Source of the DNA: Henricia sp. BOLD:AAB3569
Lineage: Eukaryota; Echinodermata; Asteroidea; Spinulosida; Echinasteridae
Reading direction: 5' to 3'
Assembly (NCBI GenBank): GCA_037783545.1
Contig: JBBELK010000096.1
Coordinates: 1,736,001-1,800,000 of the forward strand
Length of the DNA stretch: 64,000 nucleotides
The stretch's first letter is position 1, and every line of letters begins with the position of its first letter. The position numbers were made by a program, and so were the translations under genes. This document shows, piece by piece, positions 1 to 35,324 of this stretch. The notes below the pieces were generated by a model. That model saw only the letters and a program-made list of their open reading frames with translations, made no database searches and was not told the DNA's origin.

Positions 1-1998
1 CACGCCCCAGTTTGGGACGGGAATTTGGTCAAAGTGTAGTCCAAACGTCGGCAAATTTGGAGGTCGAAAAATTTTCCGACGAACTTCACATTTTGCATGC
101 TCCAAACACTCTATATTGCGCACTTGTCCTAAACAATTGACAGACTTTCGCCGGGAAATGGCAGAGAAATTTCAGAGTTTAGGGAAAACTGGGTTGGGGC
201 TTCCTGACTGCTCTCGCAAACCGTGGCTGTCTGTTCACTCCTCTTTGGTGTACTCCTGACTCGTGCGCATGCTCAGTCCTTCGGACTGTTGTTGACACGC
301 CCCAGTTTGGGACGGGAATTTGGTCAAAGTGTAGTCCAAACGTCGGCAAATTTGGAGGTCAAAAAATTTTTCGACGAACTTCAAATTTTGCATGCTCCAA
401 ACACTCTATATTGCGCACTTGTCCTAAAAAATTGACAGACTTTTCGCCGGGAAATGGCAGAGAAATTTCAGAGTTTAGGGAAAACTCGGTTGGGGCTTCC
501 TGACTGCTCCCGCAAACCGTGGCTGTCTGAACACTCCTCTTTGGTGTACTCCTGACTCGTGCGCATGCTCAGTCCTTCGGACTGTCGTTGACACGGCCCA
601 GTTTGGGACGGGAATTTGGTCAAAGTGTGGTCCAAACGTCGGCAAATTTGGAGGTCAAAAAATTTTCCGACGAACTTCAAATTTTGCATGCTCCAAACAC
701 TCTATATTGCGCACTTGTCCTAAAAAATTGACAGACTTTTCGCCGGGAAATGGCAGAGAAATTTCAGAGTTTAGGGAAAACTGGGTTGGGGCTTCCTGAC
801 TGCTCCCGCAAACCTTGGCTGTCTGTACACTCCTCTTTGGTGTACTCCTGACTCGTGCGCATGCTCAGTCCTTCGGACTGTCGTTGACACGGCCCAGTTT
901 GGGACGGGAATTTGGTCAAAGTGTGGTCCAAACGTCGGCAAATTTGGAGGTCGAGAAATTTTCTGACGAACTTCAAATTTTGCATGCTCTAAACACTGTA
1001 TATTGCGCACTTGTCCTAAAAAATTGACAGACTTTCGCCTGGAAATGGCAGAGAAAATTCAGAGTTTAGGGAAAACTAGGTTGGGGCTTCCTGACTGCTC
1101 CCGCAAACCTTGGCTGTCTGTACACTCCTCTTTGGTGTACTCCTGACTCGTGCGCATGCTCAGTCCTTCGGACTGTCGTTGACACGGCCCAGTTTGGGAC
1201 GGGAATTTGGTCAAAGTGTGGTCCAAACGTCGGCAAATTTGGAGGTCGAGAAATTTTCTGACGAACTTCAAATTTTGCATGCTCCAAACACTCTATATTG
1301 CGCACTTGTCCTAAAAAATTGACAGACTTTTCGCCGGGAAATGGCAGAGAAATTTCAGAGTTTAGGGAAAACTCGGTTGGGGCTTCCTGACTGCTCCCGC
1401 AAACCGTGGCTGTCTGAACACTCCTCTTTGGTGTACTCCTGACTCGTGCGCATGCTCAGTCCTTCGGACTGTCGTTGACACGGCCCAGTTTGGGACGTGA
1501 ATTTGGTCAAAGTGTGGTCCAAACGTCGGCAAATTTGGAGGTCGAAACATTTTCCGACGAACTTCAAATTGTGCATGCTCCAAACACTCTATATTGCGCA
1601 CTTGTCCTAAAAAATGTACAGACTTTCGCCGGGAAAAGGCAGAGAAATTTCAGAGTTTAGGGAAAACTAGGTTGGGGCTTCCTGACTGCTCCCGCAAACC
1701 GTGGCTGTATGTACACTCCTCTTTGGTGTACTCCTGACTCGTGCGCATGCTCAGTCCTTCGGACTGTCGTTGACACGCCCCAGTTTGGGACGGGAATTTG
1801 TTCAAAGTGTAGTCCAAACGTCGGCAAATTTGGAGGTCAAACAATTTTTTTCGACGAACTTCAAATTTTGCATGCTCCAAACACTCTATATTGCGCACTT
1901 GTCCTAAAAAATTGACAGACTTTTCGCCGGGAAATGGCAGAGAAATTTCAGAGTTTAGGGAAAACTGGGTTGGGGCTTCCTGACTGCTCCCGCAAACC
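1..1998 (+). repeat. HOR cycle 1: F-A-B-C-D-B'-E (7-mer, first monomer partial)
   Basis: Monomer types are told apart by shared variants: F has cttcacatttt and ctaaacaattg; A has ctgttcactcc and ctgttgttgac; B has ctgaacactcc; C and D have ccttggctg, with ctctaaacactgta in C; E has atttgttcaaag and a long T run. This cycle lacks H, G and I. The B' copy near 1405 carries gggacgtgaat and aaacattttcc and is followed by a gtacag/aaaagg junction. Confidence 0.85.
274..288. other. Hairpin motif present in every monomer (first example)
   Basis: The 15-base sequence cagtccttcggactg is a perfect inverted repeat: a 6-bp stem around a ttc loop. It occurs once per monomer across both arrays and is kept in all shortened monomers. 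Only a few copies vary, for example cagcccttcgg near 46550 and 48597, cagtcattcgg near 26886 and 52587, and an insertion giving cttcggagactg near 46256. A role in RNA folding, protein binding or recombination is possible but not shown. Confidence 0.8.
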
Positions 1999-3771
1999 GT
2001 GGCTGTCTGTACACTCCTCTTTGGTGTACTCCTGACTCGTGCGCATGCTCAGTCCTTCGGACTGTCGTTGACACGCCCCAGTTTGGGACGGGAATTTGGT
2101 CAAAGTGTAGTCCAAACGTCGGCAAATTTGGAGGTCGAAAAATTTTCCGACGAACTTCACATTTTGCATGCTCCAAACACTCTATATTGCGCACTTGTCC
2201 TAAACAATTGACAGACTTTCGCCGGGAAATGGCAGAGAAATTTCAGAGTTTAGGGAAAACTGGGTTGGGGCTTCCTGACTGCTCTCGCAAACCGTGGCTG
2301 TCTGTTCACTCCTCTTTGGTGTACTCCTGACTCGTGCGCATGCTCAGTCCTTCGGACTGTTGTTGACACGCCCCAGTTTGGGACGGGAATTTGGTCAAAG
2401 TGTAGTCCAAACGTCGGCAAATTTGGAGGTCAAAAAATTTTTCGACGAACTTCAAATTTTGCATGCTCCAAACACTCTATATTGCGCACTTGTCCTAAAA
2501 AATTGACAGACTTTTCGCCGGGAAATGGCAGAGAAATTTCAGAGTTTAGGGAAAACTCGGTTGGGGCTTCCTGACTGCTCCCGCAAACCGTGGCTGTCTG
2601 AACACTCCTCTTTGGTGTACTCCTGACTCGTGCGCATGCTCAGTCCTTCGGACTGTCGTTGACACGGCCCAGTTTGGGACGGGAATTTGGTCAAAGTGTG
2701 GTCCAAACGTCGGCAAATTTGGAGGTCAAAAAATTTTCCGACGAACTTCAAATTTTGCATGCTCCAAACACTCTATATTGCGCACTTGTCCTAAAAAATT
2801 GACAGACTTTTCGCCGGGAAATGGCAGAGAAATTTCAGAGTTTAGGGAAAACTGGGTTGGGGCTTCCTGACTGCTCCCGCAAACCTTGGCTGTCTGTACA
2901 CTCCTCTTTGGTGTACTCCTGACTCGTGCGCATGCTCAGTCCTTCGGACTGTCGTTGACACGGCCCAGTTTGGGACGGGAATTTGGTCAAAGTGTGGTCC
3001 AAACGTCGGCAAATTTGGAGGTCGAGAAATTTTCTGACGAACTTCAAATTTTGCATGCTCTAAACACTGTATATTGCGCACTTGTCCTAAAAAATTGACA
3101 GACTTTCGCCTGGAAATGTCAGAGAAAATTCAGAGTTTAGGGAAAACTAGGTTGGGGCTTCCTGACTGCTCCCGCAAACCTTGGCTGTCTGTACACTCCT
3201 CTTTGGTGTACTCCTGACTCGTGCGCATGCTCAGTCCTTCGGACTGTCGTTGACACGGCCCAGTTTGGGACGGGAATTTGGTCAAAGTGTGGTCCAAACG
3301 TCGGCAAATTTGGAGGTCGAGAAATTTTCTGACGAACTTCAAATTTTGCATGCTCCAAACACTCTATATTGCGCACTTGTCCTAACAAATTGACAGACTT
3401 TCGCCTGGAAATGGCAGAGAAAATTCAGAGTTTAGGGAAAACTGGGTTGGGGCTTCCTGACTGCTCCCGCAAACCGTGGCTGTCTGTACACTCCTCTTTG
3501 GTGTACTCCTGACTCGTGCGCATGCTCAGTCCTTCGGACTGTCGTTGACAATGCCCAGTTTGGGACGGGAATTTGGTCAAAGTGTAGTCCAAACGTCGGC
3601 AAATTTGGAGGTCAAAAAATTTTCCGACGAACTTCAAATTTTGCATGCTCCAAACACTCTATATTGCGCACTTGTCCTAAAAAATTGACAGACTTTTCGC
3701 CGGGAAATGGCAGAGAAATTTCAGAGTTTAGGGAAAACTGGGTTGGGGCTTCCTGACTGCTCCCGCAAACC
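1999..3771 (+). repeat. HOR cycle 2: F-A-B-C-D-G (6-mer)
   Basis: Six monomers spanning 1773 bp. It contains the D-to-G junction with cctaacaaattg and the G marker gacaatgccc, then returns directly to F, skipping I and E. H is also missing between B and C. Confidence 0.85.
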
Positions 3772-6433: not shown

Positions 6434-8206
6434 GTGGCTGTCTGTACACTCCTCTTTGGTGTACTCCTGACTCGTGCGCATGCTCAGTCCTTCGGACTGT
6501 CGTTGACACGCCCCAGTTTGGGACGGGAATTTGGTCAAAGTGTAGTCCAAACGTCGGCAAATTTGGAGGTCGAAAAATTTTCCGACGAACTTCACATTTT
6601 GCATGCTCCAAACACTCTATATTGCGCACTTGTCCTAAACAATTGACAGACTTTCGCCGGGAAATGGCAGAGAAATTTCAGAGTTTAGGGAAAACTGGGT
6701 TGGGGCTTCCTGACTGCTCTCGCAAACCGTGGCTGTCTGTTCACTCCTCTTTGGTGTACTCCTGACTCGTGCGCATGCTCAGTCCTTCGGACTGTTGTTG
6801 ACACGCCCCAGTTTGGGACGGGAATTTGGTCAAAGTGTAGTCCAAACGTCGGCAAATTTGGAGGTCAAAAAAAATTTCGACGAACTTCAAATTTTGCATG
6901 CTCCAAACACTCTATATTGCGCACTTGTCCTAAAAAATTGACAGACTTTTCGCCGGGAAATGGCAGAGAAATTTCAGAGTTTAGGGAAAACTCGGTTGGG
7001 GCTTCCTGACTGCTCCCGCAAACCGTGGCTGTCTGAACACTCCTCTTTGGTGTACTCCTGACTCGTGCGCATGCTCAGTCCTTCGGACTGTCGTTGACAC
7101 GGCCCAGTTTGGGACGGGAATTTGGTCAAAGTGTGGTCCAAACGTCGGCAAATTTGGAGGTCAAAAAATTTTCCGACGAACTTCAAATTTTGCATGCTCC
7201 AAACACTCTATATTGCGCACTTGTCCTAAAAAATTGACAGACTTTTCGCCGGGAAATGGCAGAGAAATTTCAGAGTTTAGGGAAAACTGGGTTGGGGCTT
7301 CCTGACTGCTCCCGTAAACCGTGGCTGTCTGTACACTCCTCTTTGGTGTACTCCTGACTCGTGCGCATGCTCAGTCCTTCGGACTGTCGTTGACACGGCC
7401 CAGTTTGGGACGGGAATTTGGTCAAAGTGTGGTCCAAACGTCGGCAAATTTGGAGGTCGAGAAATTTTCCGACGAACTTCAAATTTTGCATGCTCCAAAC
7501 ACTCTATATTGCGCACTTGTCCTAAAAAATGTACAGACTTTCGCTGGGAAAAGGCAGAGAAATTTCAGAGTTTAGGGAAAACTGGGTTGGGGCTTCCTGA
7601 CTGCTCCCGCAAACCTTGGCTGTCTGTACACTCCTCTTTGGTGTACTCCTGACTCGTGCGCATGCTCAGTCCTTCGGACTGTCGTTGACACGGCCCAGTT
7701 TGGGACGGGAATTTGGTCAAAGTGTGGTCCAAACGTCGGCAAATTTGGAGGTCGAGAAATTTTCTGACGAACTTCAAATTTTGCATGCTCTAAACACTGT
7801 ATATTGCGCACTTGTCCTAAAAAATTGACAGACTTTCGCCTGGAAATGGCAGAGAAAATTCAGAGTTTAGGGAAAACTAGGTTGGGGCTTCCTGACTGCT
7901 CCCGCAAACCTTGGCTGTCTGTACACTCCTCTTTGGTGTACTCCTGACTCGTGCGCATGCTCAGTCCTTCGGACTGTCGTTCACACGGCCCAGTTTGGGA
8001 CGGGAATTTGGTCAAAGTGTGGTCCAAACGTCGGCAAATTTGGAGGTCGAGAAATTTTCTGACGAACTTCAAATTTTGCATGCTCCAAACACTCTATATT
8101 GCGCACTTGTCCTAAAAAATTGACAGACTTTTCGCCGGGAAATGGCAGAGAAATTTCAGAGTTTAGGGAAAACTCGGTTGGGGCTTCCTGACTGCTCCCG
8201 CAAACC
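6434..8206 (+). repeat. HOR cycle 4: F-A-B-H-C-D (6-mer)
   Basis: Six monomers over 1773 bp. The last D does not carry its usual aacaaattg end but an A-like end and the aaaactcgg lead-in typical of B, then runs into F. G, I and E are missing. Confidence 0.85.
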
Positions 8207-10867
8207 GTGGCTGTCTGTACACTCCTCTTTGGTGTACTCCTGACTCGTGCGCATGCTCAGTCCTTCGGACTGTCGTTGACACGCCCCAGTTTGGGACGGG
8301 AATTTGGTCAAAGTGTAGTCCAAACGTCGGCAAATTTGGAGGTCGAAAAATTTTCCGACGAACTTCACATTTTGCATGCTCCAAACACTCTATATTGCGC
8401 ACTTGTCCTAAACAATTGACAGACTTTCGCCGGGAAATGGCAGAGAAATTTCAGAGTTTAGGGAAAACTGGGTTGGGGCTTCCTGACTGCTCTCGCAAAC
8501 CGTGGCTGTCTGTTCACTCCTCTTTGGTGTACTCCTGACTCGTGCGCATGCTCAGTCCTTCGGACTGTTGTTGACACGCCCCAGTTTGGGACGGGAATTT
8601 GGTCAAAGTGTAGTCCAAACGTCGGCAAATTTGGAGGTCAAAAAATTGTTCGACGAACTTCAAATTTTGCATGCTCCAAACACTCTATATTGCGCACTTG
8701 TCCTAAAAAATTGACAGACTTTTCGCCGGGAAATGGCAGAGAAATTTCAGAGTTTAGGGAAAACTCGGTTGGGGCTTCCTGACTGCTCCCGCAAACCGTG
8801 GCTGTCTGAACACTCCTCTTTGGTGTACTCCTGACTCGTGCGCATGCTCAGTCCTTCGGACTGTCGTTGACACGGCCCAGTTTGGGACGGGAATTTGGTC
8901 AAAGTGTGGTCCAAACGTCGGCAAATTTGGAGGTCAAAAAATTTTCCGACGAACTTCAAATTTTGCATGCTCCAAACACTCTATATTGCGCACTTGTCCT
9001 AAAAAATTGACAGACTTTTCGCCGGGAAATGGCAGAGAAATTTCAGAGTTTAGGGAAAACTGGGTTGGGGCTTCCTGACTGCTCCCGCAAACCGTGGCTG
9101 TCTGTACACTCCTCTTTGGTGTACTCCTGACTCGTGCGCATGCTCAGTCCTTCGGACTGTCGTTGACACGGCCCAGTTTGGGACGGGAATTTGGTCAAAG
9201 TGTGGTCCAAACGTCGGCAAATTTGGAGGTCGAGAAATTTTCCGACGAACTTCAAATTTTGCATGCTCCAAACACTCTATATTGCGCACTTGTCCTAAAA
9301 AATGTACAGACTTTCGCCGGGAAAAGGCAGAGAAATTTCAGAGTTTAGGGAAAACTGGGTTGGGGCTTCCTGACTGCTCCCGCAAACCTTGGCTGTCTGT
9401 ACACTCCTCTTTGGTGTACTCCTGACTCGTGCGCATGCTCAGTCCTTCGGACTGTCGTTGACACGGCCCAGTTTGGGACGGGAATTTGGTCAAAGTGTGG
9501 TCCAAACGTCGGCAAATTTGGAGGTCGAGAAATTTTCTGACGAACTTCAAATTTTGCATGCTCTAAACACTGTATATTGCGCACTTGTCGTAAAAAATTG
9601 ACAGACTTTCGCCTGGAAATGGCAGAGAAAATTCAGAGTTTAGGGAAAACTAGGTTGGGGCTTCCTGACTGCTCCCGCAAACCTTGGCTGTCTGTACACT
9701 CCTCTTTGGTGTACTCCTGACTCGTGCGCATGCTCAGTCCTTCGGACTGTCGTTGACACGGCCCAGTTTGGGACGGGAATTTGGTCAAAGTGTGGTCCAA
9801 ACGTCGGCAAATTTGGAGGTCGAGAAATTTTCTGACGAACTTCAAATTTTGCATGCTCCAAACACTCTATATTGCGCACTTGTCCTAACAAATTGACAGA
9901 CTTTCGCCTGGAAATGGCAGAGAAAATTCAGAGTTTAGGGAAAACTGGGTTGGGGCTTCCTGACTGCTCCCGCAAACCGTGGCTGTCTGTACACTCCTCT
10001 TTGGTGTACTCCTGACTCGTGCGCATGCTCAGTCCTTCGGACTGTCGTTGACAATGCCCAGTTTGGGACGGGAATTTGGTCAAAGTGTAGTCCAAACGTC
10101 GGCAAATTTGGAGGTCAAAAAATTTTCCGACGAACTTCAAATTTTGCATGCTCCAAACACTCTATATTGCGCACTTGTCCTAAAAAATTGACAGACTTTT
10201 CGCCCGGAAATGGCAGAGAAATTTCAGAGTTTAGGGAAAACTGGGTTGGGGCTTCCTGACTGCTCCCGCAAACCGTGGCTGTCTGTACACTCCTCTTTGG
10301 TGTACTCCTGACTCGTGCGCATGCTCAGTCCTTCGGACTGTCGTTGACACGCCCCAGTTTGGGACGGGAATTTGGTCAAAGTGTAGTCCAAACGTCGGCA
10401 AATTTGGAGGTCGAAAAATTTTCCGACGAACTTCAAATTTTGCATGCTCCAAACACTCTATATTGCGCACTTGTCCTAAAAAATTGACAGACTTTCGCCG
10501 GGAAATGGCAGAGAAATTTCAGAGTTTAGGGAAAACTAGGTTGGGGCTTCCTGACTGCTCCCGCAAACCGTGGCTGTCTGTACACTCCTCTTTGGTGTAC
10601 TCCTGACTCGTGCGCATGCTCAGTCCTTCGGACTGTCGTTGACACGCCCCAGTTTGGGACGGGAATTTGTTCAAAGTGTAGTCCAAACGTCGGCAAATTT
10701 GGAGGTCAAACAATTTTTTTCGACGAACTTCAAATTTTGCATGCTCCAAACACTCTATATTGCGCACTTGTCCTAAAAAATTGACAGACTTTTCGCCGGG
10801 AAATGGCAGAGAAATTTCAGAGTTTAGGGAAAACTGGGTTGGGGCTTCCTGACTGCTCCCGCAAACC
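8207..10867 (+). repeat. HOR cycle 5: canonical F-A-B-H-C-D-G-I-E (9-mer)
   Basis: All nine monomer types appear once in the reference order over 2661 bp, with starts at 8207, 8502, 8798, 9094, 9389, 9684, 9979, 10275 and 10570. H is marked by aaaaaatgtacag and aaaaggcagag. It is almost identical to 12936-15597 apart from scattered single-base differences, whereas neighbouring monomers inside the cycle differ at many sites. That contrast is the signature of a higher-order repeat. Confidence 0.92.
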
Positions 10868-12935
10868 GTGGCTGTCTGTACACTCCTCTTTGGTGTACTC
10901 CTGACTCGTGCGCATGCTCAGTCCTTCGGACTGTCGTTGACACGCCCCAGTTTGGGACGGGAATTTGGTCAAAGTGTAGTCCAAACGTCGGCAAATTTGG
11001 AGGTCGAAAAATTTTACGACGAACTTCACATTTTGCATGCTCCAAACACTCTATATTGCGCACTTGTCCTAAACAATTGACAGACTTTCGCCGGGAAATG
11101 GCAGAGAAATTTCAGAGTTTAGGGAAAACTGGGTTGGGGCTTCCTGACTGCTCTCGCAAACCGTGGCTGTCTGTTCACTCCTCTTTGGTGTACTCCTGAC
11201 TCGTGCGCATGCTCAGTCCTTCGGACTGTTGTTGACACGCCCCAGTTTGGGACGGGAATTTGGTCAAAGTGTAGTCCAAACGTCGGCAAATTTGGAGGTC
11301 AAAAAATTTTTCGACGAACTTCAAATTTTGCATGCTCCAAACACTCTATATTGCGCACTTGTCCTAAAAAATTGACAGACTTTTCGCCGGGAAATGGCAG
11401 AGAAATTTCAGAGTTTAGGGAAAACTCGGTTGGGGCTTCCTGACTGCTCCCGCAAACCGTGGCTGTCTGAACACTCCTCTTTGGTGTACTCCTGACTCGT
11501 GCGCATGCTCAGTCCTTCGGACTGTCGTTGACACGGCCCAGTTTGGGACGGGAATTTGGTCAAAGTATGGTCCAAACGTCGGCAAATTTGGAGGTCAAAA
11601 AATTTTCCGACGAACTTCAAATTTTGCATGCTCCAAACACTCTATATTGCGCACTTGTCCTAAAAAATTGACAGACTTTTCGCCGGGAAATGGCAGAGAA
11701 ATTTCAGAGTTTAGGGAAAACTGGGTTGGGGCTTCCTGACTGCTCCCGCAAACCGTGGCTGTCTGTACACTCCTCTTTGGTGTACTCCTGACTCGTGCGC
11801 ATGCTCAGTCCTTCGGACTGTCGTTGACACGGCCCAGTTTGGGACGGGAATTTGGTCAAAGTGTGGTCCAAACGTCGGCAAATTTGGAGGTCGAGAAATT
11901 TTCCGACGAACTTCAAATTTTGCATGCTCCAAACACTCTATATTGCGCACTTGTCCTAAAAAATGTACAGACTTTCGCCGGGAAAAGGCAGAGAAATTTC
12001 AGAGTTTAGGGAAAACTGGGTTGGGGCTTCCTGACTGCTCCCGCAAACCTTGGCTGTCTGTACACTCCTCTTTGGTGTACTCCTGACTCGTGCGCATGCT
12101 CAGTCCTTCGGACTGTCGTTGACACGGCCCAGTTTGGGACGGGAATTTGGTCAAAGTGTGGTCCAAACGTCGGCAAATTTGGAGGTCGAGAAATTTTCTG
12201 ACGAACTTCAAATTTTGCATGCTCTAAACACTGTATATTGCGCACTTGTCCTAAAAAATTGACAGACTTTCGCCTGGAAATGGCAGAGAAAATTCAGAGT
12301 TTAGGGAAAACTAGGTTGGGGCTTCCTGACTGCTCCCGCAAACCTTGGCTGTCTGTACACTCCTCTTTGGTGTACTCCTGACTCGTGCGCATGCTCAGTC
12401 CTTCGGACTGTCGTTGACACGGCCCAGTTTGGGACGGGAATTTGGTCAAAGTGTGGTCCAAACGTCGGCAAATTTGGAGGTCGAGAAATTTTCTGACGAA
12501 CTTCAAATTTTGCATGCTCCAAACACTCTATATTGCGCACTTGTCCTAACAAATTGACAGACTTTCGCCTGGAAATGGCAGAGAAAATTCAGAGTTTAGG
12601 GAAAACTGGGTTGGGGCTTCCTGACTGCTCCCGCAAACCGTGGCTGTCTGTACACTCCTCTTTGGTGTACTCCTGACTCGTGCGCATGCTCAGTCCTTCG
12701 GACTGTCGTTGACAATGCCCAGTTTGGGACGGGAATTTGGTCAAAGTGTAGTCCAAACGTCGGCAAATTTGGAGGTCAAAAAATTTTCCGACGAACTTCA
12801 AATTTTGCATGCTCCAAACACTCTATATTGCGCACTTGTCCTAAAAAATTGACAGACTTTTCGCCGGGAAATGGCAGAGAAATTTCAGAGTTTAGGGAAA
12901 ACTGGGTTGGGGCTTCCTGACTGCTCCCGCAAACC
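10868..12935 (+). repeat. HOR cycle 6: F-A-B-H-C-D-G (7-mer)
   Basis: Seven monomers over 2068 bp; I and E are missing and G leads directly into F. Confidence 0.88.
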
Positions 12936-15597
12936 GTGGCTGTCTGTACACTCCTCTTTGGTGTACTCCTGACTCGTGCGCATGCTCAGTCCTTCGGACT
13001 GTCGTTGACACGCCCCAGTTTGGGACGGGAATTTGGTCAAAGTGTAGTCCAAACGTCGGCAAATTTGGAGGTCGAAAAATTTTCCAACGAACTTCACATT
13101 TTGCATGCTCCAAACACTCTATATTGCGCACTTGTCCTAAACAATTGACAGACTTTTCGCCGGGAAATGGCAGAGAAATTTCAGAGTTTAGGGAAAACTG
13201 GGTTGGGGCTTCCTGACTGCTCTCGCAAACCGTGGCTGTCTGTTCACTCCTCTTTGGTGTACTCCTGACTCGTGCGCATGCTCAGTCCTTCGGACTGTTG
13301 TTGACACGCCCCAGTTTGGGACGGGAATTTGGTCAAAGTGTAGTCCAAACGTCGGCAAATTTGGAGGTCAAAAAATTTTTCGACGAACTTCAAATTTTGC
13401 ATGCTCCAAACACTCTATATTGCGCACTTGTCCTAAAAAATTGACAGACTTTTCGCCGGGAAATGGCAGAGAAATTTCAGAGTTTAGGGAAAACTCGGTT
13501 GGGGCTTCCTGACTGCTCCCGCAAACCGTGGCTGTCTGAACACTCCTCTTTGGTGTACTCCTGACTCGTGCGCATGCTCAGTCCTTCGGACTGTCGTTGA
13601 CACGGCCCAGTTTGGGACGGGAATTTGGTCAAAGTGTGGTCCAAACGTCGGCAAATTTGGAGGTCAAAAAATTTTCCGACGAACTTCAAATTTTGCATGC
13701 TCCAAACACTCTATATTGCGCACTTGTCCTAAAAAATTGACAGACTTTTCGCCGGGAAATGGCAGAGAAATTTCAGAGTTTAGGGAAAACTGGGTTGGGG
13801 CTTCCTGACTGCTCCCGCAAACCGTGGCTGTCTGTACACTCCTCTTTGGTGTACTCCTGACTCGTGCGCATGCTCAGTCCTTCGGACTGTCGTTGACACG
13901 GCCCAGTTTGGGACGGGAATTTGGTCAAAGTGTGGTCCAAACGTCGGCAAATTTGGAGGTCGAGAAATTTTCCGACGAACTTCAAATTTTGCATGCTCCA
14001 AACACTCTATATTGCGCACTTGTCCTAAAAAATGTACAGACTTTCGCCGGGAAAAGGCAGAGAAATTTCAGAGTTTAGGGAAAACTGGGTTGGGGCTTCC
14101 TGACTGCTCCCGCAAACCTTGGCTGTCTGTACACTCCTCTTTGGTGTACTCCTGACTCGTGCGCATGCTCAGTCCTTCGGACTGTCGTTGACACGGCCCA
14201 GTTTGGGACGGGAATTTGGTCAAAGTGTGGTCCAAACGTCGGCAAATTTGGAGGTCGAAAAATTTTCTGACGAACTTCAAATTTTGCATGCTCTAAACAC
14301 TGTATATTGCGCACTTGTCCTAAAAAATTGACAGACTTTCGCCTGGAAATGGCAGAGAAAATTCAGAGTTTAGGGAAAACTAGGTTGGGGCTTCCTGACT
14401 GCTCCCGCAAACCTTGGCTGTCTGTACACTCCTCTTTGGTGTACTCCTGACTCGTGCGCATGCTCAGTCCTTCGGACTGTCGTTGACACGGCCCAGTTTG
14501 GGACGGGAATTTGGTCAAAGTGTGGTCCAAACGTCGGCAAATTTGGAGGTCGAGAAATTTTCTGACGAACTTCAAATTTTGCATGCTCCAAACACTCTAT
14601 ATTGCGCACTTGTCCTAACAAATTGACAGACTTTCGCCTGGAAATGGCAGAGAAAATTCAGAGTTTAGGGAAAACTGGGTTGGGGCTTCCTGACTGCTCC
14701 CGCAAACCGTGGCTGTCTGTACACTCCTCTTTGGTGTACTCCTGACTCGTGCGCATGCTCAGTCCTTCGGACTGTCGTTGACAATGCCCAGTTTGGGACG
14801 GGAATTTGGTCAAAGTGTAGTCCAAACGTCGGCAAATTTGGAGGTCAAAAAATTTTCCGACGAACTTCAAATTTTGCATGCTCCAAACACTCTATATTGC
14901 GCACTTGTCCTAAAAAATTGACAGACTTTTCGCCGGGAAATGGCAGAGAAATTTCAGAGTTTAGGGAAAACTGGGTTGGGGCTTCCTGACTGCTCCCGCA
15001 AACCGTGGCTGTCTGTACACTCCTCTTTGGTGTACTCCTGACTCGTGCGCATGCTCAGTCCTTCGGACTGTCGTTGACACGCCCCAGTTTGGGACGGGAA
15101 TTTGGTCAAAGTGTAGTCCAAACGTCGGCAAATTTGGAGGTCGAAAAATTTTCCGACGAACTTCAAATTTTGCATGCTCCAAACACTCTATATTGCGCAC
15201 TTGTCCTAAAAAATTGACAGACTTTCGCCGGGAAATGGCAGAGAAATTTCAGAGTTTAGGGAAAACTAGGTTGGGGCTTCCTGACTGCTCCCGCAAACCG
15301 TGGCTGTCTGTACACTCCTCTTTGGTGTACTCCTGACTCGTGCGCATGCTCAGTCCTTCGGACTGTCGTTGACACGCCCCAGTTTGGGACGGGAATTTGT
15401 TCAAAGTGTAGTCCAAACGTCGGCAAATTTGGAGGTCAAACAATTTTTTTCGACGAACTTCAAATTTTGCATGCTCCAAACACTCTATATTGCGCACTTG
15501 TCCTAAACAATTGACAGACTTTTCGCCGGGAAATGGCAGAGAAATTTCAGAGTTTAGGGAAAACTGGGTTGGGGCTTCCTGACTGCTCCCGCAAACC
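12936..15597 (+). repeat. HOR cycle 7: canonical F-A-B-H-C-D-G-I-E (9-mer)
   Basis: Second complete cycle, 2662 bp, in the same order as 8207-10867. Starts are 12936, 13232, 13528, 13824, 14119, 14414, 14709, 15005 and 15300. Confidence 0.92.
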
Positions 15598-17669
15598 GTG
15601 GCTGTCTGTACACTCCTCTTTGGTGTACTCCTGACTCGTGCGCATGCTCAGTCCTTCGGACTGTCGTTGACACGCCCCAGTTTGGGACGGGAATTTGGTC
15701 AAAGTGTAGTCCAAACGTCGGCAAATTTGGAGGTCGAACAATTTTCCGACGAACTTCACATTTTGCATGCTCCAAACACTCTATATTGCGCACTTGTCCT
15801 AAACAATTGACAGACTTTCGCCGGGAAATGGCAGAGAAATTTCAGAGTTTAGGGAAAACTGGGTTGGGGCTTCCTGACTGCTCTCGCAAACCGTGGCTGT
15901 CTGTTCACTCCTCTTTGGTGTACTCCTGACTCGTGCGCATGCTCAGTCCTTCGGACTGTTGTTGACACGCCCCAGTTTGGGACGGGAATTTGGTCAAAGT
16001 GTAGTCCAAACGTCGGCAAATTTGGAGGTCAAAAAATTTTTCGACGAACTTCAAATTTTGCATGCTCCAAACACTCTATATTGCGCACTTGTCCTAAAAA
16101 ATTGACAGACTTTTCGCCGGGAAATGGCAGAGAAATTTCAGAGTTTAGGGAAAACTCGGTTGGGGCTTCCTGACTGCTCCCGCAAACCGTGGCTGTCTGA
16201 ACACTCCTCTTTGGTGTACTCCTGACTCGTGCGCATGCTCAGTCCTTCGGACTGTCGTTGACACGGCCCAGTTTGGGACGGGAATTTGGTCAAAGTGTAG
16301 TCCAAACGTCGGCAAATTTGGAGGTCGAAAAATTTTCCGACGAACTTCAAATTTTGCATGCTCCAAACACTCTATATTGCGCACTTGTCCTAAAAAATTG
16401 ACAGACTTTCGCCGGGAAATGGCAGAGAAATTTCAGAGTTTAGGGAAAACTAGGTTGGGGCTTCCTGACTGCTCCCGCAAACCGTGGCTGTCTGTACACT
16501 CCTCTTTGGTGTACTCCTGACTCGTGCGCATGCTCAGTCCTTCGGACTGTCGTTGACACGCCCCAGTTTGGGACGGGAATTTGTTCAAAGTGTAGTCCAA
16601 ACGTCGGCAAATTTGGAGGTCAAACAATTTTTTTCGACGAACTTCAAATTTTGCATGCTCCAAACACTCTATATTGCGCACTTGTCCTAACAAATTGACA
16701 GACTTTCGCCTGGAAATGGCAGAGAAAATTCAGAGTTTAGGGAAAACTGGGTTGGGGCTTCCTGACTGCTCCCGCAAACCGTGGCTGTCTGTACACTCCT
16801 CTTTGGTGTACTCCTGACTCGTGCGCATGCTCAGTCCTTCGGACTGTCGTTGACAATGCCCAGCTTGGGACGGGAATTTGGTCAAAGTGTAGTCCAAACG
16901 TCGGCAAATTTGGAGGTCAAAAAATTTTCCGACGAACTTCAAATTTTGCATGCTCCAAACACTCTATATTGCGCACTTGTCCTAAAAAATTGACAGACTT
17001 TTCGCCGGGAAATGGCAGAGAAATTTCAGAGTTTAGGGAAAACTGGGTTGGGGCTTCCTGACTGCTCCCGCAAACCGTGGCTGTCTGTACACTCCTCTTT
17101 GGTGTACTCCTGACTCGTGCGCATGCTCAGTCCTTCGGACTGTCGTTGACACGCCCCAGTTTGGGACGGGAATTTGGTCAAAGTGTAGTCCAAACGTCGG
17201 CAAATTTGGAGGTCGAAAAATTTTCCGACGAACTTCAAATTTTGCATGCTCCAAACACTCTATATTGCGCACTTGTCCTAAAAAATTGACAGACTTTCGC
17301 CGGGAAATGGCAGAGAAATTTCAGAGTTTAGGGAAAACTAGGTTGGGGCTTCCTGACTGCTCCCGCAAACCGTGGCTGTCTGTACACTCCTCTTTGGTGT
17401 ACTCCTGACTCGTGCGCATGCTCAGTCCTTCGGACTGTCGTTGACACGCCCCAGTTTGGGACGGGAATTTGTTCAAAGTGTAGTCCAAACGTCGGCAAAT
17501 TTGGAGGTCAAACAATTTTTTTCGACGAACTTCAAATTTTGCATGCTCCAAACACTCTATATTGCGCACTTGTCCTAAAAAATTGACAGACTTTTCGCCG
17601 GGAAATGGCAGAGAAATTTCAGAGTTTAGGGAAAACTGGGTTGGGGCTTCCTGACTGCTCCCGCAAACC
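15598..17669 (+). repeat. HOR cycle 8: F-A-B/I-E/D-G-I-E (7-mer with mosaics)
   Basis: The copy at 16189 starts as B (ctgaacactcc, ggcccag) and ends as I (gtagtcc, gtcgaaaaattttcc), followed by E as I normally is. That E (16484) ends with the D-type cctaacaaattg and cctgg, and is followed by G as D normally is. Two within-monomer exchanges explain the order. Confidence 0.85.
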
Positions 17670-20600
17670 GTGGCTGTCTGTACACTCCTCTTTGGTGTAC
17701 TCCTGACTCGTGCGCATGCTCAGTCCTTCGGACTGTCGTTGACACGCCCCAGTTTGGGACGGGAATTTGGTCAAAGTGTAGTCCAAACGTCGGCAAATTT
17801 GGAGGTCGAAAAATTTTCCGACGAACTTCACATTTTGCATGCTCCAAACACTCTATATTGCGCACTTGTCCTAAACAATTGACAGACTTTCGCCGGGAAA
17901 TGGCAGAGAAATTTCAGAGTTTAGGGAAAACTGGGTTGGGGCTTCCTGACTGCTCTCGCAAACCGTGGCTGTCTGTTCACTCCTCTTTGGTGTACTCCTG
18001 ACTCGTGCGCATGCTCAGTCCTTCGGACTGTTGTTGACACGCCCCAGTTTGGGACGGGAATTTGGTCAAAGTGTAGTCCAAACGTCGGCAAATTTGGAGG
18101 TCAAAAAATTTTTCGACGAACTTCAAATTTTGCATGCTCCAAACACTCTATATTGCGCACTTGTCCTAAAAAATTGACAGACTTTTCGCCGGGAAATGGC
18201 AGAGAAATTTCAGAGTTTAGGGAAAACTCGGTTGGGGCTTCCTGACTGCTCCCGCAAACCGTGGCTGTCTGAACACTCCTCTTTGGTGTACTCCTGACTC
18301 GTGCGCATGCTCAGTCCTTCGGACTGTCGTTGACACGGCCCAGTTTGGGACGGGAATTTGGTCAAAGTGTGGTCCAAACGTCGGCAAATTTGGAGGTCAA
18401 AAAATTTTCCGACGAACTTCAAATTTTGCATGCTCCAAACACTCTATATTGCGCACTTGTCCTAAAAAATTGACAGACTTTTCGCCGGGAAATGGCAGAG
18501 AAATTTCAGAGTTTAGGGAAAACTGGGTTGGGGCTTCCTGACTGCTCCCGCAAACCGTGGCTGTCTGTACACTCCTCTTTGGTGTACTCCTGACTCGTGC
18601 GCATGCTCAGTCCTTCGGACTGTCGTTGACACGGCCCAGTTTGGGACGGGAATTTGGTCAAAGTGTGGTCCAAACGTCGGCAAATTTGGAGGTCGAGAAA
18701 TTTTCCGACGAACTTCAAATTTTGCATGCTCCAAACACTCTATATTGCGCACTTGTCCTAAAAAATGTACAGACTTTCGCCGGGAAAAGGCAGAGAAATT
18801 TCAGAGTTTAGGGAAAACTGGGTTGGGGCTTCCTGACTGCTCCCGCAAACCTTGGCTGTCTGTACACTCCTCTTTGGTGTACTCCTGACTCGTGCGCATG
18901 CTCAGTCCTTCGGACTGTCGTTGACACGGCCCAGTTTGGGACGGGAATTTGGTCAAAGTGTGGTCCAAACGTCGGCAAATTTGGAGGTCGAGAAATTTTC
19001 TGACGAACTTCAAATTTTGCATGCTCTAAACACTGTATATTGCGCACTTGTCCTAAAAAATTGACAGACTTTCGCCTGGAAATGGCAGAGAAAATTCAGA
19101 GTTTAGGGAAAACTAGGTTGGGGCTTCCTGACTGCTCCCGCAAACCTTGGCTGTCTGTACACTCCTCTTTGGTGTACTCCTGACTCGTGCGCATGCTCAG
19201 TCCTTCGGACTGTCGTTGACACGGCCCAGTTTGGGACGGGAATTTGGTCAAAGTGTGGTCCAAACGTCGGCAAATTTGGAGGTCGAGAAATTTTCTGACG
19301 AACTTCAAATTTTGCATGCTCCAAACACTCTATATTGCGCACTTGTCCTAACAAATTGACAGACTTTCGCCTGGAAATGGCAGAGAAAATTCAGAGTTTA
19401 GGGAAAACTGGGTTGGGGCTTCCTGACTGCTCCCGCAAACCGTGGCTGTCTGTACACTCCTCTTTGGTGTACTCCTGACTCGTGCGCATGCTCAGTCCTT
19501 CGGACTGTCGTTGACACGGCCCAGTTTGGGACGGGAATTTGGTCAAAGTGTGGTCCAAACGTCGGCAAATTTGGAGGTCGAGAAATTTTCCGACGAACTT
19601 CAAATTTTGCATGCTCCAAACACTCTATATTGCGCACTTGTCCTAAAAAATGTACAGACTTTCGCCGGGAAAAGGCAGAGAAATTTCAGAGTTTAGGGAA
19701 AACTGGGTTGGGGCTTCCTGACTGCTCCCGCAAACCTTGGCTGTCTGTACACTCCTCTTTGGTGTACTCCTGACTCGTGCGCATGCTCAGTCCTTCGGAC
19801 TGTCGTTGACACGGCCCAGTTTGGGACGGGAATTTGGTCAAAGTGTGGTCCAAACGTCGGCAAATTTGGAGGTCGAGAAATTTTCTGACGAACTTCAAAT
19901 TTTGCATGCTCTAAACACTGTATATTGCGCACTTGTCCTAAAAAATTGACAGACTTTCGCCTGGAAATGGCAGAGAAAATTCAGAGTTTAGGGAAAACTA
20001 GGTTGGGGCTTCCTGACTGCTCCCGCAAACCTTGGCTGTCTGTACACTCCTCTTTGGTGTACTCCTGACTCGTGCGCATGCTCAGTCCTTCGGACTGTCG
20101 TTGACACGGCCCAGTTTGGGACGGGAATTTGGTCAAAGTGTGGTCCAAACGTCGGCAAATTTGGAGGTCGAGAAATTTTCTGACGAACTTCAAATTTTGC
20201 ATGCTCCAAACACTCTATATTGCGCACTTGTCCTAACAAATTGACAGACTTTCGCCTGGAAATGGCAGAGAAAATTCAGAGTTTAGGGAAAACTGGGTTG
20301 GGGCTTCCTGACTGCTCCCGCAAACCGTGGCTGTCTGTACACTCCTCTTTGGTGTACTCCTGACTCGTGCGCATGCTCAGTCCTTCGGACTGTCGTTGAC
20401 AATGCCCAGTTTGGGACGGGAATTTGGTCAAAGTGTAGTCCAAACGTCGGCAAATTTGGAGGTCAAAAAATTTTCCGACGAACTTCAAATTTTGCATGCT
20501 CCAAACACTCTATATTGCGCACTTGTCCTAAAAAATTGACAGACTTTTCGCCGGGAAATGGCAGAGAAATTTCAGAGTTTAGGGAAAACTGGGTTGGGGC

Positions 20601-22991
20601 TTCCTGACTGCTCCCGCAAACCGTGGCTGTCTGTACACTCCTCTTTGGTGTACTCCTGACTCGTGCGCATGCTCAGTCCTTCGGACTGTCGTTGACACGC
20701 CCAAGTTTGGGACGGGAATTTGGTCAAAGTGTAGTCCAAACGTCGGCAAATTTGGAGGTCGAAAAATTTTCCGACGAACTTCAAATTTTGCATGCTCCAA
20801 ACACTCTATATTGCGCACTTGTCCTAAAAAATTGACAGACTTTCGCCGGGAAATGGCAGAGAAATTTCAGAGTTTAGGGAAAACTAGGTTGGGGCTTCCT
20901 GACTGCTCCCGCAAACCGTGGCTGTCTGTACACTCCTCTTTGGTGTACTCCTGACTCGTGCGCATGCTCAGTCCTTCGGACTGTCGTTGACACGCCCCAG
21001 TTTGGGACGGGAATTTGTTCAAAGTGTAGTCCAAACGTCGGCAAATTTGGAGGTCAAACAATTTTTTTCGACGAACTTCAAATTTTGCATGCTCCAAACA
21101 CTCTATATTGCGCACTTGTCCTAACAAATTGACAGACTTTCGCCTGGAAATGGCAGAGAAAATTCAGAGTTTAGGGAAAACTGGGTTGGGGCTTCCTGAC
21201 TGCTCCCGCAAACCGTGGCTGTCTGTACACTCCTCTTTGGTGTACTCCTGACTCGTGCGCATGCTCAGTCCTTCGGACTGTCGTTGACAATGCCCAGTTT
21301 GGGACGGGAATTTGGTCAAAGTGTAGTCCAAACGTCGGCAAATTTGGAGGTCAAAAAATTTTCCGACGAACTTCAAATTTTGCATGCTCCAAACACTCTA
21401 TATTGCGCACTTGTCCTAAAAAATTGACAGACTTTTCGCCGGGAAATGGCAGAGAAATTTCAGAGTTTAGGGAAAACTGGGTTGGGGCTTCCTGACTGCT
21501 CCCGCAAACCGTGGCTGTCTGTACACTCCTCTTTGGTGTACTCCTGACTCGTGCGCATGCTCAGTCCTTCGGACTGTCGTTGACACGCCCCAGTTTGGGA
21601 CGGGAATTTGGTCAAAGTGTAGTCCAAACGTCGGCAAATTTGGAGGTCGAAAAATTTTCCGACGAACTTCAAATTTTGCATGCTCCAAACACTCTATATT
21701 GCGCACTTGTCCTAAAAAATTGACAGACTTTCGCCGGGAAATGGCAGAGAAATTTCAGAGTTTAGGGAAAACTAGGTTGGGGCTTCCTGACTGCTCCCGC
21801 AAACCGTGGCTGTCTGTACACTCCTCTTTGGTGTACTCCTGACTCGTGCGCATGCTCAGTCCTTCGGACTGTCGTTGACACGCCCCAGTTTGGGACGGGA
21901 ATTTGTTCAAAGTGTAGTCCAAACGTCGGCAAATTTGGAGGTCAAACAATTTTTTTTGACGAACTTCAAATTTTGCATGCTCCAAACACTCTATATTGCG
22001 CACTTGTCCTAACAAATTGACAGACTTTCGCCTGGAAATGGCAGAGAAAATTCAGAGTTTAGGGAAAACTGGGTTGGGGCTTCCTGACTGCTCCCGCAAA
22101 CCGTGGCTGTCTGTACACTCCTCTTTGGTGTACTCCTGACTCGTGCGCATGCTCAGTCCTTCGGACTGTCGTTGACAATGCCCAGTTTGGGACGGGAATT
22201 TGGTCAAAGTGTAGTCCAAACGTCGGCAAATTTGGAGGTCAAAAAATTTTCCGACGAACTTCAAATTTTGCATGCTCCAAACACTCTATATTGCGCACTT
22301 GTCCTAAAAAATTGACAGACTTTTCGCCGGGAAATGGCAGAGAAATTTCAGAGTTTAGGGAAAACTGGGTTGGGGCTTCCTGACTGCTCCCGCAAACCGT
22401 GGCTGTCTGTACACTCCTCTTTGGTGTACTCCTGACTCGTGCGCATGCTCAGTCCTTCGGACTGTCGTTGACACGCCCCAGTTTGGGACGGGAATTTGGT
22501 CAAAGTGTAGTCCAAACGTCGGCAAATTTGGAGGTCGAACAATTTTCCGACGAACTTCAAATTTTGCATGCTCCAAACACTCTATATTGCGCACTTGTCC
22601 TAAAAAATTGACAGACTTTCGCCGGGAAATGGCAGAGAAATTTCAGAGTTTAGGGAAAACTAGGTTGGGGCTTCCTGACTGCTCCCGCAAACCGTGGCTG
22701 TCTGTACACTCCTCTTTGGTGTACTCCTGACTCGTGCGCATGCTCAGTCCTTCGGACTGTCGTTGACACGCCCCAGTTTGGGACGGGAATTTGTTCAAAG
22801 TGTAGTCCAAACGTCGGCAAATTTGGAGGTCAAACAATTTTTTTCGACGAACTTCAAATTTTGCATGCTCCAAACACTCTATATTGCGCACTTGTCCTAA
22901 AAAATTGACAGACTTTTCGCCGGGAAATGGCAGAGAAATTTCAGAGTTTAGGGAAAACTGGGTTGGGGCTTCCTGACTGCTCCCGCAAACC
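17670..22991 (+). repeat. HOR cycle 9: expanded F-A-B-(HCD)x2-(GIE)x3 (18-mer)
   Basis: Eighteen monomers over 5322 bp, twice the canonical length. H-C-D occurs at 18557-19441 and again at 19442-20326. G-I-E occurs three times, starting at 20327, 21215 and 22103. The E copies at 20918 and 21806 have the D-type cctaacaaattg end that leads into G, so the expansion joins lie within E. Confidence 0.88.
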
Positions 22992-25947
22992 GTGGCTGTC
23001 TGTACACTCCTCTTTGGTGTACTCCTGACTCGTGCGCATGCTCAGTCCTTCGGACTGTCGTTGACACGCCCCAGTTTGGGACGGGAATTTGGTCAAAGTG
23101 TAGTCCAAACGTCGGCAAATTTGGAGGTCGAAAAATTTTCCGACGAACTTCACATTTTGCATGCTCCAAACACTCTATATTGCGCACTTGTCCTAAACAA
23201 TTGACAGACTTTCGCCGGGAAATGGCAGAGAAATTTCAGAGTTTAGGGAAAACTGGGTTGGGGCTTCCTGACTGCTCTCGCAAACCGTGGCTGTCTGTTC
23301 ACTCCTCTTTGGTGTACTCCTGACTCGTGCGCATGCTCAGTCCTTCGGACTGTTGTTGACACGCCCCAGTTTGGGACGGGAATTTGGTCAAAGTGTAGTC
23401 CAAACGTCGGCAAATTTGGAGGTCAAAAAATTTTTCGACGAACTTCAAATTTTGCATGCTCCAAACACTCTATATTGCGCACTTGTCCTAAAAAATTGAC
23501 AGACTTTTCGCCGGGAAATGGCAGAGAAATTTCAGAGTTTAGGGAAAACTCGGTTGGGGCTTCCTGACTGCTCCCGCAAACCGTGGCTGTCTGAACACTC
23601 CTCTTTGGTGTACTCCTGACTCGTGCGCATGCTCAGTCCTTCGGACTGTCGTTGACACGGCCCAGTTTGGGACGGGAATTTGGTCAAAGTGTGGTCCAAA
23701 CGTCGGCAAATTTGGAGGTCAAAAAATTTTCTGACGAACTTCAAATTTTGCATGCTCCAAACACTCTATATTGCGCACTTGTCCTAAAAAATTGACAGAC
23801 TTTTCGCCGGGAAATGGCAGAGAAATTTCAGAGTTTAGGGAAAACTGGGTTGGGGCTTCCTGACTGCTCCCGCAAACCGTGGCTGTCTGTACACTCCTCT
23901 TTGGTGTACTCCTGACTCGTGCGCATGCTCAGTCCTTCGGACTGTCGTTGACACGGCCCAGTTTGGGACGGGAATTTGGTCAAAGTGTGGTCCAAACGTC
24001 GGCAAATTTGGAGGTCGAGAAATTTTCCGACGAACTTCAAATTTTGCATGCTCCAAACACTCTATATTGCGCACTTGTCCTAAAAAATGTACAGACTTTC
24101 GCCGGGAAAAGGCAGAGAAATTTCAGAGTTTAGGGAAAACTGGGTTGGGGCTTCCTGACTGCTCCCGCAAACCTTGGCTGTCTGTACACTCCTCTTTGGT
24201 GTACTCCTGACTCGTGCGCATGCTCAGTCCTTCGGACTGTCGTTGACACGGCCCAGTTTGGGACGGGAATTTGGTCAAAGTGTGGTCCAAACGTCGGCAA
24301 ATTTGGAGGTCGAGAAATTTTCCGACGAACTTCAAATTTTGCATGCTCCAAACACTCTATATTGCGCACTTGTCCTAAAAAATGTACAGACTTTCGCCGG
24401 GAAAAGGCAGAGAAATTTCAGAGTTTAGGGAAAACTGGGTTGGGGCTTCCTGACTGCTCCCGCAAACCTTGGCTGTCTGTACACTCCTCTTTGGTGTACT
24501 CCTGACTCGTGCGCATGCTCAGTCCTTCGGACTGTCGTTGACACGGCCCAGTTTGGGACGGGAATTTGGTCAAAGTGTGGTCCAAACGTCGGCAAATTTG
24601 GAGGTCGAGAAATTTTCTGACGAACTTCAAATTTTGCATGCTCTAAACACTGTATATTGCGCACTTGTCCTAAAAAATTGACAGACTTTCGCCTGGAAAT
24701 GGCAGAGAAAATTCAGAGTTTAGGGAAAACTAGGTTGGGGCTTCCTGACTGCTCCCGCAAACCTTGGCTGTCTGTACACTCCTCTTTGGTGTACTCCTGA
24801 CTCGTGCGCATGCTCAGTCCTTCGGACTGTCGTTGACACGGCCCAGTTTGGGACGGGAATTTGGTCAAAGTGTGGTCCAAACGTCGGCAAATTTGGAGGT
24901 CGAGAAATTTTCTGACGAACTTCAAATTTTGCATGCTCCAAACACTCTATATTGCGCACTTGTCCTAACAAATTGACAGACTTTCGCCTGGAAATGGCAG
25001 AGAAAATTCAGAGTTTAGGGAAAACTGGGTTGGGGCTTCCTGACTGCTCCCGCAAACCGTGGCTGTCTGTACACTCCTCTTTGGTGTACTCCTGACTCGT
25101 GCGCATGCTCAGTCCTTCGGACTGTCGTTGACAATGCCCAGTTTGGGACGGGAATTTGGTCAAAGTGTAGTCCAAACGTCGGCAAATTTGGAGGTCAAAA
25201 AATTTTCCGACGAACTTCAAATTTTGCATGCTCCAAACACTCTATATTGCGCACTTGTCCTAAAAAATTGACAGACTTTTCGCCGGGAAATGGCAGAGAA
25301 ATTTCAGAGTTTAGGGAAAACTGGGTTGGGGCTTCCTGACTGCTCCCGCAAACCGTGGCTGTCTGTACACTCCTCTTTGGTGTACTCCTGACTCGTGCGC
25401 ATGCTCAGTCCTTCGGACTGTCGTTGACACGCCCCAGTTTGGGACGGGAATTTGGTCAAAGTGTAGTCCAAACGTCGGCAAATTTGGAGGTCGAAAAATT
25501 TTCCGACGAACTTCAAATTTTGCATGCTCCAAACACTCTATATTGCGCACTTGTCCTAAAAAATTGACAGACTTTCGCCGGGAAATGGCAGAGAAATTTC
25601 AGAGTTTAGGGAAAACTAGGTTGGGGCTTCCTGACTGCTCCCGCAAACCGTGGCTGTCTGTACACTCCTCTTTGGTGTACTCCTGACTCGTGCGCATGCT
25701 CAGTCCTTCGGACTGTCGTTGACACGCCCCAGTTTGGGACGGGAATTTGTTCAAAGTGTAGTCCAAACGTCGGCAAATTTGGAGGTCAAACAATTTTTTT
25801 CGACGAACTTCAAATTTTGCATGCTCCAAACACTCTATATTGCGCACTTGTCCTAAAAAATTGACAGACTTTTCGCCGGGAAATGGCAGAGAAATTTCAG
25901 AGTTTAGGGAAAACTGGGTTGGGGCTTCCTGACTGCTCCCGCAAACC
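22992..25947 (+). repeat. HOR cycle 10: F-A-B-H-H-C-D-G-I-E (10-mer)
   Basis: Ten monomers over about 2956 bp. H is present twice (23879 and 24174); the second H has the C-type ccttggctg start and an H end, so it is a C/H mosaic. This is the last well-ordered cycle before the array becomes irregular. Confidence 0.85.
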
Positions 25948-31219: not shown

Positions 31220-32105
31220 TCAGAGTTTAGGGAAAACTGGGTTGGGGCTTCCTGACTGCTCCCGCAAACCGTGGCTGTCTCTACACTCCTCTTTGGTGTA
31301 CTCCTGACTCGTGCGCATGCTCAGTCCTTCGGACTGTCGTTGACACGGCCCAGTTTGGGACGGGAATTTGGTCAAAGTGTGGTCCAAACGTCGGCAAATT
31401 TGGAGGTCGAAACATTTTCCGACGAACTTCAAATTTTGCATGCTCCAAACACTCTATATTGCGCACTTGTCCTAAAAAATGTACAGACTTTCGCGGGGAA
31501 AAGGCAGAGAAATTTCAGAGTTTAGGGAAAACTGGGTTGGGGCTTCCTGACTGCTCCCGCAAACCTTGGCTGTCTGTACACTCCTCTTTGGTGTACTCCT
31601 GACTCGTGCGCATGCTCAGTCCTTCGGACTGTCGTTGACACGGCCCAGTTTGGGACGGGAATTTGGTCAAAGTGTGGTCCAAACGTCGGCAAATTTGGAG
31701 GTCGAAAAATTTTCCGACGAACTTCAAATTTGGAAAGCTCCAAACACTCTATATTGCGCACTTGTCCTAAACAATTGACAGACTTTCGCCGGGAAATGGC
31801 AGAGAAATTTCAGAGTTTAGGGAAAACTGGGTTGGGGCTTCCTGACTGCTCCCGCAAACCGTGGCTGTCTGTACACTCCTCTTTAGTGTACACCTGACTC
31901 GTGCGCATGCTCAGTCCTTCGGACTGTCGTTGACACGGCCCAGTTTGGGACGGGAATTTGGTCAAAGTGTGGTCCAAACGTCGGCAAATTTGGAGGTCAA
32001 AAAATTTTCCGACGAACTTCAAATTTTGCATGCTCCAAACACTCTATATTGCGCACTTGTCCTAAAAAATTGACAGACTTTTCGCCGGGAAATGGCAGAG
32101 AAATT
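31220..32105 (+). repeat. 886-bp three-monomer unit, copy 1
   Basis: Three monomers shared with the segment 886 bp downstream. Diagnostic variants are the rare tttggaaagctcc in place of ttttgcatgctcc (near 31730) and gtacacctgac in place of gtactcctgac (near 31890). Confidence 0.75.
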
Positions 32106-32978
32106 TCAGAGTTTAGGGAAAACTCGGTTGGGGCTTCCTGACTGCTCCCGCAAACCGTGGCTGTCTGAACACTCCTCTTTGGTGTACTCCTGACTCGTGC
32201 GCATGCTCAGTCCTTCGGACTGTCGTTGACACGGCCCAGTTTGGGACGGGAATTGGGTCAAAGTGTGGTCCAAACGTCGGCAAATTTGGAGGTCGAAACA
32301 TTTTCCGACGAACTTCAAATTTTGCATGCTCCAAACACTCTATATTGCGCACTTGTCCTAAAAAATGTACAGACTTTCGCCGGGAAAAGGCAGAGAAATT
32401 TCAGAGTTTAGGGAAAACTGGGTTGGGGCTTCCTGACTGCTCCCGCAAACCTTGGCTGTCTGTACACTCCTCTTTGGTGTACTCCTGACTCGTGCGCATG
32501 CTCAGTCCTTCGGACTGTCGTTGACACGGCCCAGTTTGGGACGGGAATTTGGTCAAAGTGTGGTCCAAACGTCGGCAAATTTGGAGGTCGAAAAATTTTC
32601 CGACGAACTTCAAATTTGGAAAGCTCCAAACACTCTATATTGCGCACTTGTCCTAAACAATTGACAGACTTTCGCCGGGAAATGGCAGAGAAATTTCAAA
32701 GTTTAGGGAAAACTGGGTTGGGGCTTCCTGACTGCTCCCGCAAACCGTGGCTGTCTGTACACTCCTCTTTGGTGTACACCTGACTCGTGCGCATGCTCAG
32801 TCCTTCGGACTGTCGTTGACACGGCCCAGTTTGGGACGGGAATTTGGTCAAAGTGTGGTCCAAACGTCGGCAAATTTGGAGGTCGAAAAATTTTCCGACG
32901 AACTTCAAATTTTGCATGCTCCAAACACTCTATATTGCGCACTTGTCCTAAAAAATTGACAGACTTTCGCCGGGAAAT
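32106..32978 (+). repeat. 886-bp three-monomer unit, copy 2, cut by the LINE
   Basis: Second copy of the unit, with tttggaaagctcc near 32616 and gtacacctgac near 32776. It ends at the LINE 3' junction, so the LINE entered the array at or after this duplication. Confidence 0.72.
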
Positions 32979-35249: not shown

Positions 35250-35324
35250 TGTAAAATTGTAGTTCTGGACCAGTTGGTCAACAGAATCGCTGTCAGTATT
35301 TGGAATAGGGTTAGTTCCGAGACA

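Follow-up and report, generated by a model that had tools for sequence, protein, structure and literature searches.

Is the satellite DNA that fills the 64-kb stretch analysed here (the window) organised as a higher-order repeat (HOR), and does its unit of nine monomers recur regularly? An initial annotation had proposed that, up to position 25947, nine types of a roughly 295-bp monomer recur in fixed order with a steady period of about 2661 bp. Our results indicate that this observation is, as a whole, largely real, and HOR is a fitting name for the array: copies of the same type are nearly identical, neighbours are less so, and one type succeeds the next in fixed order. The regular period does not hold. 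The first array is a mosaic of about ten unequal passes through the nine types and not a regular 9-mer array.

The window is a tandem array of about 207 monomers with one interruption by a long interspersed nuclear element (LINE). Tandem Repeats Finder (TRF) reported a period of 295, with 165 copies over 1-48986 and further arrays up to the window end, in agreement with the annotated monomer length. Monomers were located by a conserved 15-mer with at most 3 mismatches, which gave 209 anchors, one of them spurious within the LINE. Between these anchors, 203 of the 208 intervals fell within 150-400 bp and were aligned; of the five left out, two form the LINE stretch and the others, 519, 519 and 589 bp long, belong to the third satellite domain. 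In the first array (176-32700), all 110 monomer spacings measure 295-298 bp, which together with the TRF period identifies its monomers as head-to-tail copies of one family.

When the 110 monomers on the left side of the LINE are clustered without supervision, the nine types are resolved at an average linkage of 3 differences. The clusters, denoted by letters, already have preferred successors: C is followed by D in 9 of 10 cases, H by E in 8 of 9 and G by B in 8 of 9. Cluster A has two main successors (of 19 cases, 8 lead to C and 7 to F) because types m1 and m8 merge at the cut-off behind these letters; the two are only 2 columns apart and are merged at a cut-off of 4. As reference for m1-m9 we took the nine monomers of the complete cycle at 8175-10835. 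With the 10 hybrid monomers excluded, pairs of the same type are 99.78% identical (mean 0.64 differences per 295, range 0-3; 294 pairs of unfused monomers, with 7 to 10 unfused copies per type), and adjacent pairs are 97.09% identical (mean 8.57 per 295, range 4-13; 68 pairs). Monomers at the same position in different units are thus clearly closer to each other than to their neighbours. The annotated "many" diagnostic sites between neighbours are a relative matter, the nine consensus sequences differing in 31 columns in total and m1 and m8 in two of them. Difference between copies of the same type does not grow with their separation (correlation -0.07), and this flat profile suggests a recent amplification across the whole block. 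The types are young, about 3% apart. CpG decay was considered as a source of the diagnostic sites: in the 180 of 203 monomers that have full length, consensus CpG sites are about twice as variable as other sites (0.033 versus 0.016), which hints at germline methylation.

The order of the types was read by painting each monomer with m1-m9. Without an order prior, 76 of the 86 steps among the 87 monomers of 191-25915 run from m1 to m9 and back to m1, far beyond chance, as shuffles of the order (n = 20) reached a mean of 9.45 and a maximum of 15 steps; with an order prior, 79 of the 86 steps are in order. Successive types share 2.49 bits of mutual information, whereas none of 1000 shuffles exceeded 1.12. 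Higher-order blocks were counted by a definition akin to that of TRASH, whose default is 5 differences (PMC10199239). Blocks had at least 3 monomers, an indel run counted as one difference, and either the default or a stricter limit of 2 differences per monomer was applied. Between 1 and 25.9 kb we found 63 block pairs at the default limit (maximum 25 in 200 shuffles) and 50 at the stricter one (maximum 7 in 200 shuffles). From 25.9 to 32.7 kb, the 23 monomers hold no higher-order block and do not follow a significant order (P = 0.1). The type order ends near 25.9 kb, and the annotated end at 25947 is about right.

The period is another matter. Passes through the order, counted by eye on the painted string, number roughly ten, and only two of them are full cycles in the m1-m9 frame, besides one rotated run of nine consecutive types (Table 1). 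The full cycles are those annotated at 8207-10867 and 12936-15597, which become 8175-10835 and 12904-15565 after a 32-bp rotation. These complete copies are spaced 4729 bp apart, not 2661, because a 7-mer without m8 and m9 sits between them. The other passes are shortened, lengthened or fused, such as 2-3-5-6-7-1, 2-3-4-5-6/9-1, 2-3/8-9/6-7-8-9-1 and 7-8-9/6-7-8-9/6-7-8-9, and for this reason lag 9 fails as a period. Monomers nine apart differ on average by 9.01 and neighbours by 8.94, so that the expectation of identity nine apart clearly above that of neighbours fails if taken literally. Of the pairs at lag 9, 12 of 78 stay within 3 differences, compared with 28 of 71 for lag 16. When cluster labels are compared across all of the first array, monomers nine apart agree in a fraction of 0.13, under the maximum of 500 shuffles (0.22), and those 16 apart in 0.32, over that maximum and the strongest among lags 2-29. 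Periodicity above one monomer, whose absence the initial annotation had named as the outcome that would speak against it, is therefore present, at a lag other than the annotated one. At the level of bases (1-26 kb, shifts 1-8999), the best autocorrelations are at 295, 591, 296 and 4730, and 2661 ranks 21st. Near-identical blocks of 1.2-3.3 kb lie at many different shifts, diagonals having been extended only at those shifts (150-39999) where a run of 400 or more bases matches exactly; the longest block at each of the shifts 2069, 2661, 4434, 4730, 5322 and 6802 bp is 99.4-99.9% identical. Unit length is thus not constant, and the canonical copy is not the commonest.

How could such a mosaic arise? 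The types, their order, the near identity between cycles, the type changes inside monomers and the register are all read off the sequence. Type changes inside a monomer are seen in 8 of 87 monomers without the order prior and in 10 of 87 with it. Hybrids of the m9/m6 kind occur at 20886-21182 and 21774-22070 in addition to the one in Table 1, and we regard the 888-bp trimer as nascent. Since all 110 spacings are 295-298 bp, no skip, repeat or fusion in the first array departs from the register. We consider it highly probable that a nine-monomer block was amplified and then reshuffled by homologous exchange between misaligned copies. Nine adjacent 295-bp monomers, already about 3% different, would have been amplified as one unit, which unequal crossover, gene conversion or break-induced replication between misaligned copies would then have reshuffled repeatedly. 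Misalignment in this domain would preserve the 295-bp register, and such register-keeping exchange would drop or repeat whole monomers, as in the 7-mer that lacks m8-m9. An exchange within a monomer would fuse two types (m9/m6, m6/m2, m2/m3), and the fused monomers would then be amplified in turn, as the m9/m6 fusion has been, together with m7 and m8, in the 888-bp trimer. We infer this exchange mechanism, and likewise a location of the array in heterochromatin, perhaps at a centromere. Several points weigh against the proposal. Few diagnostic sites, the 31 columns mentioned above, define the switches of type within monomers, so that independent mutations could account for some of them, and of the ten type-changing monomers two are lost when the order prior is removed. 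The mosaic seen here would look alike whether it came from crossover, conversion or replication-based copying, and assembly errors in the exact type order are possible.

Would a simpler array, wrongly assembled, look the same? Mis-joined near-identical blocks would produce skipped and fused monomers, and short or noisy reads have difficulty with exact repeats as long as 1330 bp and with a 3.3-kb block at 99.7% identity. Private variants nevertheless set the blocks apart, the m9/m6-type hybrid is found at three places, the window contains no Ns, and the longest exact repeat found, at 1330 bp, is far under usual long-read lengths; an artefact of this kind seems to us very unlikely. An alternative explanation would be a monomeric satellite with a handful of ordinary 2-5 kb segmental duplications and no true HOR. 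It accords with there being no more than two full m1-m9 cycles and a single rotated run, with a longest near-identical block at a shift of 4730 bp and longest blocks of 2-3 kb, and with a lag 9 that is not special. However, 7-10 unfused copies of all nine types, with fixed successors over 1-25.9 kb, need many rounds of duplication, and the outcome of so many rounds is a higher-order repeat by definition. We thus regard this explanation as unlikely.

Selection could also maintain the order, if the types alternated a structure or binding site that centromeres or chromatin need to function; we find this highly improbable. Two hairpin-forming stretches, at consensus 43-63 (GTACAC...GTGTAC) and 84-98 (CAGTCC-TTC-GGACTG), fall within or beside the 60 bp that vary least, and short inverted repeats are somewhat enriched (6 versus 1.7 expected, 2% of 300 dinucleotide shuffles being as high). 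A scan with the known CENP-B box core motif gave, with two mismatches, 169 and 211 matches on the two strands, about one per monomer in a count made without a chance control. Yet no exact core occurs on either strand and a single match has one mismatch, the folding energy of one tested monomer is unremarkable (z = -1.7), and the array edge at 25.9-32.7 kb lacks this order. The low-variation block is not significant (P = 0.17), and a conserved functional block in the monomer was rejected on that ground. Amplification of a nine-monomer block followed by in-register exchange remains the explanation we prefer.

Table 1. Features of the 64-kb window (coordinates are positions in the window)
Feature	Coordinates	Strand	Evidence
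HOR domain: fixed order of nine types m1-m9 over 87 whole monomers (191-25915), about ten passes, two complete cycles	1..25947	+	Clustering and painting
Complete cycle m1-m9, 2661 bp	8175..10835	+	Clustering, painting
7-mer cycle m1-m7, without m8 and m9, 2068 bp	10836..12903	+	Clustering; 8061-10424 versus 10722-13085 99.75% identical
Second complete cycle m1-m9, 2662 bp	12904..15565	+	8425-11679 versus 13155-16409 99.69% identical, shift 4730
In-register hybrid monomer m9/m6	16452..16748	+	Also recovered without order prior
Rotated run of nine consecutive types (m7-m8-m9-m1 to m6)	16749..19409	+	
Trimer (m7, m8, m9/m6 hybrid), 888-bp shift within the HOR	20182..22900	+	20182-22012 versus 21070-22900 99.78% identical; type order
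Array edge: 23 monomers, many close to the nine types, without higher-order blocks	25916..32714	+	0 HOR blocks; order P = 0.1; nearest types
Non-long-terminal-repeat (non-LTR) retrotransposon (LINE) within a monomer; one open frame of 696 aa for reverse transcriptase, another frame for endonuclease; 3' tail resembling (TAA)n	32979..36453	-	Pfam PF00078, PF03372; frames; junctions
Second satellite domain: more diverged monomers, weak HOR of its own (4420-bp shift), three 277/278-bp monomers	36454..48792	+	
Third domain: truncated monomers of 207, 214 and 241 bp (20 aligned) among 295-bp ones	48793..64000	+	

The LINE is located at the border between two satellite domains. The monomer resumes on its far side, lacking about 8 bases at the insertion point, and no target-site duplication is evident at the junctions. 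Relatives of its reverse transcriptase are numerous (7892 found); among the 120 listed the best is 57% identical, and the four that carry organism names are 43-50% identical and belong to the acorn worm Ptychodera flava, the coral Oculina patagonica (two) and the limpet Patella caerulea. The LINE points to an animal host, and judging by these relatives a non-vertebrate one, a marine invertebrate, is plausible.

Beyond the LINE, monomers of the second domain differ from each other by 13.4 on average, and higher-order blocks number 8 at the limit of 5 differences (shuffle maximum 3) and 1 at the limit of 2 (shuffle maximum 1). The 277/278-bp monomers, at 36772, 37639 and 47646, have a 48-bp internal tandem duplication, and two of the three lie within a repeated 867-bp trimer (295-278-294). 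The short monomers of the third domain lose parts of alignment columns 141-242. This domain contains a 950-bp HOR (207-207-295-241) at 52914-55617 with 99.4% identity; the domain's blocks number 51 against a shuffle maximum of 59 at the limit of 5 differences, and 5 against 2 at the stricter limit.

Open frames of 123-132 aa recur across the array and look like by-products of the repeat. A protein search with one of them (window 8170-8538) gave no match at E <= 0.001, Rfam gave none in the whole window at the gathering threshold, and no tRNA genes were found in the whole window, so that coding or RNA-gene content of the monomer was dropped as a possibility. Five 15-base pieces of the monomer, two of them also as reverse complement, had no match in the papers searched, and a search of these for a 295-bp centromeric satellite monomer found none. 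An 18-base piece had no match in viral contigs; it had 5 in prokaryote contigs, which were judged to be chance, each stretch containing a single match.

How does the array compare with known systems, as the cited papers describe them? It shares with primate alpha satellite, made of 171-bp monomers in chromosome-specific n-mers, a fixed type order, near-identical copies of each type and cycles with deleted monomers beside full ones (PMC11050224). On monomer length and the CENP-B box it does not fit alpha satellite itself, whose monomers of about 171 bp in part carry such a box: the monomer here is 295 bp long, and no exact box core occurs. Neighbours are about 3% apart here and not about 20-40%, and the 64-kb window holds two complete units, compared with, for instance, 429 copies of a 15mer (PMC11050224). 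Irregular HORs with shorter and longer runs of the same types are described on human chromosomes 13 and 15 (PMC10199239, PMC11050224). The cascading alpha HOR of human chromosome 15 (15 monomers, 9 types; PMC11050224) similarly mixes shorter and longer runs of nine ordered types, and the strongest lag here, 16 monomers, equals 9 + 7. In our array, however, those 16 monomers were not multiplied as one unit: different deletions gave rise to the 7-monomer stretch behind each complete cycle, and there is no canonical unit with repeated types amplified many times.

HORs outside primates are already documented. The centromeres of switchgrass and sorghum (PMC4053949) show multimers outside animals, and switchgrass mixes full and truncated monomers like the 950-bp unit of our third domain, a likeness by description and not by sequence; its monomer differs in being 175 bp long, and its centromere location was shown (PMC4053949). 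The pericentromeric satellites of the Drosophila ananassae subgroup, likewise compared by description, are invertebrate HORs with monomers of 99-411 bp, long arrays and few transposons (PMC11917152, which also mentions Arabidopsis HORs by comparison). Among beetles, HORs have been described in Chrysolina (PMC8122249) and in Tribolium castaneum (Vlahovic et al. 2016, as cited in PMC5615363). For corals, sea anemones, cnidaria and hemichordates, no paper on HORs was found among the matches listed. With beetles, fruit flies, sorghum, switchgrass and Arabidopsis on record, the present array is one more instance.

The types being only 3% apart, the cycles still unequal and fused intermediates kept in the array, one could speculate that this is a very young HOR, still forming at a centromere in a marine invertebrate lineage from which no HOR has been described, and preserving its fused intermediates; we give this a small but real chance. 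The phenomenon is well known in animals and plants, and the array by itself changes no general picture. It does provide a sequence-resolved case, with low divergence between types, in which likely intermediates of HOR formation can be read: deleted cycles, in-register hybrids and a newborn trimer.

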